From positions 1 through 35,811 of the forward strand of contig BJGN01000019.1 in NCBI GenBank assembly GCA_014190515.1: DNA of 35,811 bases. The letters are read 5' to 3'. The notes below the pieces were generated by a model. That model was given only the letters and a program-made list of their open reading frames with translations, searched no databases and was not told the DNA's origin. This document shows, piece by piece, positions 20,382 through 23,169 of the stretch. The stretch is from Bacteroidota bacterium (lineage in GTDB: Bacteria; Bacteroidota; Bacteroidia; Chitinophagales; Saprospiraceae). Made by a program: the position numbers and the translations under genes. Numbering within the stretch: position 1 is the first letter of the stretch; each line of letters starts with the position of its first letter.

Positions 20382-20412
20382 AAAGCCCCAGAGTAAATCC
20401 CTGGGGCTTTTT
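20382..20412 (+). terminator. Rho-independent terminator after clpS
   Basis: A 10-bp perfect GC-containing stem (20382-20391 with 20401-20410), 9-base loop and T tail. It lies 17 bases after the clpS stop and ends the peroxiredoxin-clpS transcript. Confidence 0.9.
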
Positions 20413-20490
20413 AATTGGCTGAAAACTAATTCTTGAATGTATAATCTAACTTGACCTCAATATAAATTTCAATTTTTACAATTCCAAAAA

Positions 20491-20527
20491 ATAATAGGGG
20501 AATTAGGAGTTCCCCTATTATTTTTTT
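20491..20527 (+). terminator. Second strong terminator with no gene in front of it
   Basis: A 12-bp perfect stem (20491-20502 with 20510-20521), 7-base loop and a run of seven T. It stands 80 bases after the clpS terminator with no open frame between them, and 66 bases before the next gene. It may be a backup terminator, the end of a small RNA, or an attenuator for the Kelch gene if transcription starts upstream of it. The stem also has A residues on its left flank, so it could work on both strands. Confidence 0.75.
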
Positions 20528-20562: not shown

Positions 20563-20570
20563 TATATTTG
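20563..20570 (+). promoter_or_regulatory. -7 promoter element for the Kelch-regulator gene
   Basis: TATATTTG, an exact match to TAnnTTTG, 23 bases before the start codon and just downstream of the second terminator. A TTTG at 20545-20548 is only 14 bases away, shorter than usual, so the -33 element is uncertain. Transcription from here would not pass through the terminator hairpin. Confidence 0.6.
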
Positions 20571-20592: not shown

Positions 20593-22032
20593 ATGCTCAG
20601 AAATGTTTTTATTTGCCTTCTTTCGCTATCCCTTTTCATTTCTGACATTACGTGCCAATCCATAAATCAGCCATTAGTTCTATCTTCTGAACAATTTAAT
20701 ATAGCAGTTAATCCTCAAAACGGAGATTATATCGTTCTTGCAAAAGATAGTTTTTATTTATTTAATTTGTCAGTATCGGGAAGGTGGAGATCTTTTAAGT
20801 ACAAAAAGAACGACCTGGATACGGTTTTGAAGCAACCCGTAGAATTGAATTTCATTCACGATGCAAAACAGGTTCTTTTCTTTGCCGGAGGTGGAGGTCA
20901 GGTATATCTATTTAAAGATTCTTCCATTATTCGTAAGGATAAATCCTTTCTGCAAAAAAATCAATTTGGTGCGGCAAGCTTTGAGTTTAAAGATAAAATC
21001 ATTCTTTACAGCGGGTATGGCTTTTATTCGTATAAACCATATATGACTGAATATTCCGATAAAACCAATGAATGGTTTTTAAGACCTTATGCTTCTAATC
21101 AATATCTACCTAAAGGTAGGCAAGCGGTCGTTTTTCAGATAGATAAACAACGGGGTTATTTTTATATGTCTTCGGGTTATACATTAAACAAGCCTTATTT
21201 TGAAGATGTAGAAAATTTGGATTTAAATGATGTATGGAGATTTGACTTGAACACAAATAAGTGGAAACAACTTGGGTATATAAAAGACGATAGGAGAATA
21301 AGAAATCTTCGGTTTCCTTTCTTTGCCAAGGGAAATTTCTACGCGATTGAAAAAGGACCAAATAATGCTGTAGTAAAAATAAATATAGCTAATAATTCAT
21401 TTGAAAAATTTAAAACAGATCATCTGGTTGATCAGTCTTTAGTAGAATATGGGACGGTCTATAATACTAAGGATGAAAATATTCTTTTGGTAATACAGGG
21501 AAAAGACCTAAGGGACAAACATAGTTTTATAGTAAGTATAGTGCCACTCAAAGAATTAGAAAAGAACTTAATTATATCCAAAAAATATTATTTCACTGTA
21601 TTTGATAGGTTATGGCCCTTTGTTTTGATGATCGTGGTTCTTATGAGTGTAGTATTTTTCAATAGGGCGTTTAAGAAAAGAAAAAATAATCAGCGAAATG
21701 AAAAGCTGGTCATTCATTTTAATCTGGCTGTAAACGAATTTACTTTTAGTGAAATCAAGATACCTTTTGAGGATGAACAGATTCAGTTTCTACATTATCT
21801 GGTTGAAAACGGAGGAGAAATTTCAAACAATGATTTGTTAGACTTTATTAAAAAAGGTCAGGAATCCTTAGATACTTTAAAGAAAAGGAAGTTAAAATTA
21901 ATATTGGATATAAATCAAATTTTTAAAATTTGCACCGGTTTGAGTAAACCGTTTTTACTTGAACTAAAAGATGAAAACGACAGGAGGTATAAAGACTATC
22001 TAATTAACCCTATTTATGAGGTGAGGATGTAA
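20593..22032 (+). CDS. Kelch-like membrane protein with winged-helix-like cytoplasmic end
   Basis: Not a named family that I recognise. 479 residues. A signal peptide (1-21) leads into a periplasmic part to about residue 335 rich in propeller-like strands with Kelch features: DVWRFDLNTNKWKQLGYI, TEYSDKTNEWFLRPY, YFYMSSGY. A single membrane helix (about 341-357) is followed by KKRK, placing residues 360-479 in the cytoplasm. That end resembles an OmpR-type winged helix: IQFLHYLVENGGEISNNDLLDFI, basic helix KKRKLKLILDINQI, then a beta hairpin ending YLINPIYEV. This would be a one-component membrane regulator without a kinase. The DNA-binding part is an inference from secondary-structure pattern. 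Own promoter and flanking terminators make it monocistronic. Confidence 0.6.
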   Translation: MLRNVFICLLSLSLFISDITCQSINQPLVLSSEQFNIAVNPQNGDYIVLAKDSFYLFNLSVSGRWRSFKYKKNDLDTVLKQPVELNFIHDAKQVLFFAGGGGQVYLFKDSSIIRKDKSFLQKNQFGAASFEFKDKIILYSGYGFYSYKPYMTEYSDKTNEWFLRPYASNQYLPKGRQAVVFQIDKQRGYFYMSSGYTLNKPYFEDVENLDLNDVWRFDLNTNKWKQLGYIKDDRRIRNLRFPFFAKGNFYAIEKGPNNAVVKINIANNSFEKFKTDHLVDQSLVEYGTVYNTKDENILLVIQGKDLRDKHSFIVSIVPLKELEKNLIISKKYYFTVFDRLWPFVLMIVVLMSVVFFNRAFKKRKNNQRNEKLVIHFNLAVNEFTFSEIKIPFEDEQIQFLHYLVENGGEISNNDLLDFIKKGQESLDTLKKRKLKLILDINQIFKICTGLSKPFLLELKDENDRRYKDYLINPIYEVRM

Positions 22033-22245: not shown

Positions 22246-23169
22246 ATGAAATTATTAACTGTTGGTACTGTGGCATTTGACGATATTGAAACGCCATTTG
22301 GTAGAGCAGAAAAGGCTATTGGTGGCGCTGCAACTTATATATCATTAGCCGCATCATACTTTGCCGAGCAGGTTAGAATCGTTTCTGTAGTGGGTGACGA
22401 TTTTCCTGAAAGCGTTTTGCAAGACTTAACAAGTCGCAATATTGATTTGGCAGGGCTGGAAGTAAAGAAAGGCGAAAAGTCGTTTTTCTGGGCGGGACGA
22501 TACCACAATGACATGAACTCCCGGGATACCCTTGAAACGCAACTCAACGTATTAGCCGATTTTAATCCTATTCTTCCTGAAGCATATAAAAGTTCAGAAT
22601 TTTTAATGTTAGGAAACCTTACGCCAGACATTCAATTATCGGTTATTGAACAAATGGTGGGTAAGCCAAAATTAATTGCGTTGGATACCATGAACTTTTG
22701 GATGGATATTGCCATGGAAAGTCTTAAAAAGGTATTAAAAAGAATTGACATGCTTATTATCAATGACGAAGAGGCCAGGCAACTCGCAGGTACCTATTCG
22801 TTGGTGACGGCAGCGGCAATCATTCATGAAATGGGACCTAAATTTGTTGTGATTAAAAAAGGAGAACACGGCGCCCTTTTATTTGAAGGGGAAAATATAT
22901 TTTATGCTCCTGCATTACCATTAGCGGAGGTTTTTGACCCAACAGGTGCCGGCGATACCTTTGCAGGCGGATTGATGGGGTATTTAGCGATGACCGGAGA
23001 GGTTTCTTTTGAAAATTTAAAAAGAGCTATTATTTACGGTTCAGCAATGGCTTCATTTTGCGTTGAAAAGTTTAGTACAGAAAGACTCCTGAACCTTTCT
23101 AAAGTTGACATTGATGCGCGGATAGAAAAATTTGTTAAACTCGTTAATTTTGATTCTATTCCAGTGTAA
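22246..23169 (+). CDS. PfkB-family carbohydrate or nucleoside kinase
   Basis: 307 residues of the ribokinase/PfkB family, which phosphorylate sugars or nucleosides with ATP. The N-terminal GGAATYISLAASYF and VVGDDFPESVL motifs and the C-terminal signature DPTGAGDTFAGGLMGYLA (catalytic base Asp237) are intact. LIINDEEARQLAG, KFVVIKKGEHGALLF complete the fold. The substrate is not predictable: the residues I can see do not pick out ribose, fructose, adenosine or inosine. No sugar operon surrounds it. It ends 1 base before the convergent rlmN stop. No promoter element with full consensus was found ahead of it. Confidence 0.9.
   Translation: MKLLTVGTVAFDDIETPFGRAEKAIGGAATYISLAASYFAEQVRIVSVVGDDFPESVLQDLTSRNIDLAGLEVKKGEKSFFWAGRYHNDMNSRDTLETQLNVLADFNPILPEAYKSSEFLMLGNLTPDIQLSVIEQMVGKPKLIALDTMNFWMDIAMESLKKVLKRIDMLIINDEEARQLAGTYSLVTAAAIIHEMGPKFVVIKKGEHGALLFEGENIFYAPALPLAEVFDPTGAGDTFAGGLMGYLAMTGEVSFENLKRAIIYGSAMASFCVEKFSTERLLNLSKVDIDARIEKFVKLVNFDSIPV

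Follow-up and report, generated by a model that had tools for sequence, protein, structure and literature searches.

Can a periplasmic Kelch-type domain act, through a single membrane helix, on a DNA-binding domain at the C-terminus of the same protein? This question is raised by a gene (positions 20593..22032, + strand, ATG start) that codes for a protein of 479 amino acids (aa) in contig BJGN01000019.1 of a member of the Saprospiraceae (Bacteroidota). The contig, analyzed over its whole length of 35.8 kb and referred to below as the window, is part of a 3.57-Mb draft genome. Sequence comparisons and structural modelling together make it likely that the gene encodes a membrane-tethered one-component transcription regulator with a periplasmic Kelch sensor and a C-terminal OmpR-type winged helix. 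The gene itself is real, because the open reading frame is retained in all six same-genus genomes searched, with 85–93% protein identity and an unchanged gene order that places it between clpS and pfkB. All six named close relatives are contigs of metagenome-assembled genomes and were filed as Saprospiraceae (three), Haliscomenobacteraceae, Bacteroidetes bacterium and Haliscomenobacter hydrossis (one each).

Domain order and predicted fold of the tail

Hydropathy analysis of the protein revealed hydrophobic windows only at residues 1–24 and 332–362. The first corresponds to a predicted signal peptide (residues 1–22; 20593..20658, + strand). The second peaks at residues 342–360 (Kyte-Doolittle score 2.08), is followed by KKRK, and was assigned to a single membrane helix (residues about 338–360; 21604..21672, + strand). 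Given these two hydrophobic segments, the 119-aa tail would be cytoplasmic with the signal peptide either cleaved or retained, and the positive flank agrees; a cytoplasmic C-terminus is thus supported by the sequence features. Neither Pfam nor NCBIfam scans detected a kinase or receiver domain. The original prediction of a signal peptide, a Kelch-type domain, one helix with a positive flank and a tail free of such modules therefore holds.

The periplasmic part (residues about 28–330; 20674..21582, + strand) was assigned to the Kelch type by two Pfam models, each of which matched one stretch: Kelch_6 (PF13964, 3e-6, 27.5 bits, cut-off 25.3), which marks the best-scoring motif at residues 185–233 (21145..21291, + strand), and Kelch_2 (2e-5, 24.8 bits, cut-off 21.3). 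Another Kelch-repeat model, PF24681, matched 10 of 15 family members at E≤0.1. Solved Kelch propellers were reached weakly by a profile of 15 members, three of them from the genus of the window, the best being KLHDC10 (E 0.0014). The domain presumably forms a beta-propeller. A full-length AlphaFold2 (AF2) model built with seven close sequences had a predicted local distance difference test score (pLDDT) of 43, too poor for use in a fold search or in counting blades.

The cytoplasmic tail (residues 361–479; 21673..22029, + strand) was modelled separately with six close orthologues, and the best of five AF2 models reached a pLDDT of 76.3 and a predicted template modelling score of 0.70. Its elements, in protein numbering, are strands 372–377, 382–385 and 388–390, helices 394–405, 412–419 and 426–448, and strands 456–458, 469–471 and 475–478. 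This order supports an OmpR/PhoB winged helix with N-terminal antiparallel strands, three helices and a C-terminal hairpin, as far as the model goes. Foldseek returned 288 matches at E≤10, and the first eight were PrrA (two chains), BaeR, DrrD, CosR, SaeR, PhoP and CadC, with probabilities of 0.89–0.99; the best was PrrA (1ys6, probability 0.99, E 0.042), and CadC (5ju7) had a probability of 0.93. The best 50 of 998 chains aligned with VIA were all of OmpR/PhoB type, judged by their titles, and included CadC and ToxR (Z 8.3–11.4). The best match had a Z of 11.4 over 93 residues at 2.6 Å, and CadC and ToxR had Z values of 9.7 and 8.7, respectively. VIA only re-ranks the Foldseek list, and a common fold proves no function. 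The earlier impression of an OmpR-type winged helix with an N-terminal antiparallel sheet was thus borne out by both structure prediction and fold search, from one prediction with a shallow alignment.

Conserved residues were consistent with this fold. In 30 aligned tails, which include the window protein, two close kin and the multi-helix protein L062 described below, position 430 was basic in 90% and position 433 in 97%. Both lie in the third helix, a putative recognition helix (residues 426–448; 21868..21936, + strand). A D-x-R motif in the predicted wing hairpin region (residues 454–472; 21952..22008, + strand) was invariant, with D463 and R465 identical in 30/30 tails. Divergent tails were 14–24% identical to that of the window protein.

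Sequence searches provided further links. A profile of the family tails and L062 (A7) matched ten non-family proteins among 395 genomes at E≤0.01, and six of these have Pfam Trans_reg_C at the matched place, namely five response regulators and a 292-aa membrane protein, L146. The other four comprise one MarR and one GerE domain, one Kelch protein (L137) and one protein that reads as a histidine kinase (L141). The top Protein Data Bank (PDB) sequence match of A7 was the OmpR homologue DrrD (1kgs, E 0.031), and the second was the wing of an organic-hydroperoxide regulator (E 0.18), which we take to be of MarR type. The first PDB match of an earlier tail profile was Rot (E 0.031). None of these PDB matches is significant alone, and together with the predicted fold they agree.

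Several observations weigh against this assignment. The remaining four tail models scored 59–65, with an alignment of seven near-identical sequences, and no Foldseek match was found at E≤0.001. No DNA-binding Pfam or NCBIfam model convincingly matched the family tails, and weak matches were scattered over single members (HTH_50, 0.05; BlaI, 0.037; SarA/Rot, 0.028). Profile-profile comparison with seven OmpR domains of the same genome was weak (probability 12%, P 0.0025, 42 columns), as was that of one tail subgroup (probability 4%, P 0.0099, 31 columns). In addition, gene context suggests no regulatory target: the family itself aside, the most widespread neighbour gene families recurred in no more than 4 of 29 loci. 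Residues 361–479 of the window protein gave no substantial sequence match in Pfam, NCBIfam or the PDB, the weakest lead being the DUF6293_C winged helix (E 0.13). PF00486 (Trans_reg_C) was not among the Pfam matches of the window protein or the family tails at E≤5, where HMMER filters drop most matches above about 0.1, and the tail was absent from the PF00486 matches in its own genome at E≤1.

A related winged-helix-like tail also seems to end a protein with seven hydrophobic segments (L062:640-1716), for which the first profile match was weak (E 0.0016) and no Pfam match was found at E≤0.001. Occurrence on such a multi-helix protein would make the tail a module.

Relatives in Bacteroidota

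When 100 related genomes were searched with the single protein sequence, it was identified in seven, including that of the window, all within the genus. With a full-protein profile, 8 of 298 genomes of the order were matched: three belong to the same genus, three contain divergent relatives of 474–490 aa with the same domain order (L045–L047), one (L048) has a match confined to the membrane segment and looks to be an unrelated membrane protein, and the eighth (L049) was left unread. The first tail profile (A2) had no credible match outside the genus; L022, L025 and L034 read as unrelated proteins, and its other weak matches were unread. Once divergent relatives were included, the tail profile matched 21 of 345 genomes of the class. 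Twelve of these represent the family, counting a tail-only frame (L050) and L062; eight matches (L058, L060, L061, L064–L067 and L069) were dropped because they read as unrelated, and L068, a 32-aa frame with stops, was dropped unread. The next profile matched 17 of 395 genomes of the phylum, and all 17 belong to the family by reading. In the last sample, A7 matched 30 of 395 phylum genomes at E≤0.01, 20 with family members and 10 without; a second match in genome G945 was unread. These samples share genomes, so that the counts are not additive, and the loose first pass may miss members. By these sequence searches, relatives are patchily spread across the phylum.

Full-length divergent relatives were 15–23% identical to the window protein, and BLAST clustering of neighbourhood proteins placed it in one single-linkage cluster with all 27 Kelch-type loci fetched. 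We examined the architecture of 32 proteins (the window protein and 31 others; close orthologues, L050, L062, a double protein, L084, and the second L098 gene were left out). A hydrophobic N-terminus, read as a signal peptide, was present in 30, the exceptions being L080 and L086, whose starts are unsure (L086 has no clear signal peptide at the start taken). One internal hydrophobic segment followed by a tail of 90–150 aa was found in 30/32 (exceptions L087 and L134), with L054 counted although its segment reaches a Kyte-Doolittle score of just 0.93, and 28 proteins were more positive after the membrane segment than before it. L070 is cut by a contig end, and the N-terminal search in L087 was widened to 110 residues. 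Recurrence at these frequencies indicates that the architecture is more than chance, and the survey of homologues called for in the original prediction thus found the same domain order across the phylum.

A tree was built from 34 proteins; of its 31 inner branches 18 were starred, and end branches were long. The three f113 rows, the three f41 rows and seven f107 rows each form a group; three further f107 rows and the two f55 rows are scattered, and the f20 rows have no resolved place. Beyond its own genus, the window protein is nearest to the f41 rows (path length about 3.8). Given this pattern, the distribution may reflect ancient descent with losses, an ancient duplication or transfer.

Additional arrangements were seen among the relatives. 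A single open frame of about 1200 aa holds two Kelch-helix-tail units in tandem (L084:61-3276, also L112:7941-11483), and adjacent pairs of family genes are present in L098 and L106. L137:31-2148 also contains Kelch, but its C-terminal part is of another kind, which we take to resemble a SARP/BTAD-type regulator; Pfam names just Kelch. A viral-contig scan with one relative (L053) gave no match.

Proposed mode of action and relation to known regulators

If the protein is a regulator, the periplasmic Kelch domain would bind a signal, and the bound state would alter the packing of two copies (dimer geometry) through the single helix. The two C-terminal winged helices would thereby be placed on DNA close to target promoters without any phosphorylation, and the protein would stay in the inner membrane. 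A sugar or glycan may be guessed as the ligand because of sugar-sensing regulators of Bacteroidetes (PMC3878776) and the neighbouring pfkB gene. The computations show the domain order, the topology, the predicted fold of the tail and the conservation of its basic third helix and wing; DNA binding, dimerisation, a ligand and a regulon are inferred.

Three other explanations were considered. The signal might instead trigger proteolysis in or near the membrane helix, with the freed winged helix acting in the cytoplasm. Such release would be compatible with a protein that crosses the membrane once and has its effector at the cytoplasmic C-terminus. Against it stands only the lack of a hint, as no neighbour family, in neighbourhoods not annotated for proteases, recurs in more than 4 of 29 loci, and no cleavage motif was sought; we regard this route as unlikely. 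It is slightly less probable that the target of the tail is not DNA but another protein, such as RNA polymerase, an anti-sigma factor or a further regulator. Winged helices also serve as protein-binding modules, and the failure of DNA-binding Pfam models to recognize the tails convincingly fits such a role; however, the basic third helix and the arginine-containing wing are retained at very low tail identity, and the nearest sequence and fold relatives of the tail are OmpR-type DNA binders. Least probable, and in our view improbable, is that the Kelch domain is an enzyme or assembly scaffold with the tail having a merely local or autoregulatory role: Kelch propellers include enzymes and 1 of 15 members weakly matched NANM epimerase (E 0.035), but no enzyme model recurs among the 15, and the low full-length identity is more in keeping with varied ligands than with a single catalytic site.

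Compared with known systems, the proposed membrane-tethered regulator is similar to ToxR, CadC and TcpP, in which an OmpR-type winged helix is carried by a membrane protein with a periplasmic sensor, and the fold matches of the tail include the domains of CadC and ToxR. In these proteins, however, the winged helix is N-terminal to the membrane helix, whereas the window protein starts with a signal peptide and has it at the C-terminus; hydropathy and the tail model bear out the reversed order that had been proposed. OmpR response regulators have an N-terminal receiver domain, for which the window protein had no Pfam match, and hybrid two-component systems carry kinase, receiver and AraC-type domains, none of which Pfam or NCBIfam listed here.

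The C-terminal order has precedents. The nearest functional one in the phylum is SusR of Bacteroides thetaiotaomicron (PMC3878776), which binds maltose and has a C-terminal DNA-binding domain described there as without significant similarity to those of other known factors; three of five SusR-like genes lie with susC/susD-like genes (PMC3878776). SusR and the window protein share the order sensor, membrane helix and C-terminal domain; the likeness is one of order alone, DNA binding being inferred here. No susC/susD-like genes were seen beside the window gene. Another example is L146:1507-2382, which combines two hydrophobic segments with an OmpR domain at the C-terminus (Pfam Trans_reg_C, 1.4e-20) and differs in having no Kelch model and a canonical Pfam winged helix. 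A Y_Y_Y search of 20 genomes also led to L174 in the genome of the window, which ends in a helix-turn-helix (GerE, 1.4e-5) placed after a Y_Y_Y domain and has no kinase model in the 279 aa scanned (Y_Y_Y to end); it differs in its LuxR-type domain and its sensor family.

The suggestion of a little-described class stands in part: the C-terminal order is known from SusR, L146 and probably L174, whereas it is new to find a Kelch sensor combined, through one helix, with a divergent OmpR-like winged helix at the C-terminus. Literature searches for membrane regulators of Kelch type or with a C-terminal winged helix gave no description of this class among the papers listed; most subscription journals were not covered. 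A survey of transmembrane regulators (PMC10269533) defined them by Pfam DNA-binding models and membrane regions. The window protein has at least one membrane region by hydropathy and no Pfam DNA-binding model at meaningful score; since the survey relies on such models, the family was probably missed by it. On balance, we lean towards an uncatalogued, patchy Bacteroidota family of transmembrane regulators that work in one step, the Kelch propeller acting directly on a divergent OmpR-type winged helix at the C-terminus, with exchangeable sensors and effectors (L062, L137), unseen by surveys that rely on Pfam DNA-binding models. If so, Bacteroidota would hold a further type of direct membrane-to-DNA switch, unnamed in Pfam and NCBIfam, and censuses of one-component membrane regulators would undercount. 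The C-terminal order would also make it possible to test if a propeller in the periplasm can control an OmpR-type winged helix via one membrane helix and with no phosphorylation, which mirrors the open ToxR/CadC question.

Neighbouring genes and upstream elements

The gene is flanked by clpS on one side and, on the other, by tRNA-Asn (opposite strand) and then a pfkB-type kinase gene (22246-23169); neighbour names except pfkB were read from translations. Neighbour proteins are mostly 95–99% identical across the six same-genus loci (eamA 92–97%, pepP 90–95%), compared with 85–93% for the Kelch protein, which therefore evolves faster than its surroundings. The only neighbour family recurring in at least three loci that includes the window is pfkB, which adjoins the gene in this genus and in L093/L095 (one genus of another family). 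There the orthologue is 62% identical and lies on the other side of the family gene; the association is suggestive, and chance is possible.

The Bacteroidota −7 promoter element is TAnnTTTG. A similar sequence, TATATTTG (20563..20570, + strand), precedes the gene and is identical in six of seven same-genus upstream regions. By eye, no −33 element was seen at the usual distance from it, and sigma-70-like sites near the gene were at chance level (7 found, 8.0 expected). Further upstream, a perfect inverted repeat (17 bp, 7-nt spacer; 20486-20526) ends 66 bp before the gene, with an A-run preceding it and a T-run after it. The repeat core (AATAATAGGGGA / TCCCCTATTATT) is identical in all seven same-genus loci, and the innermost and outermost pairs differ (by eye). 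Judged by its sequence, this repeat could be a two-way terminator or an operator. A second terminator-like repeat follows clpS at about 20385-20412.
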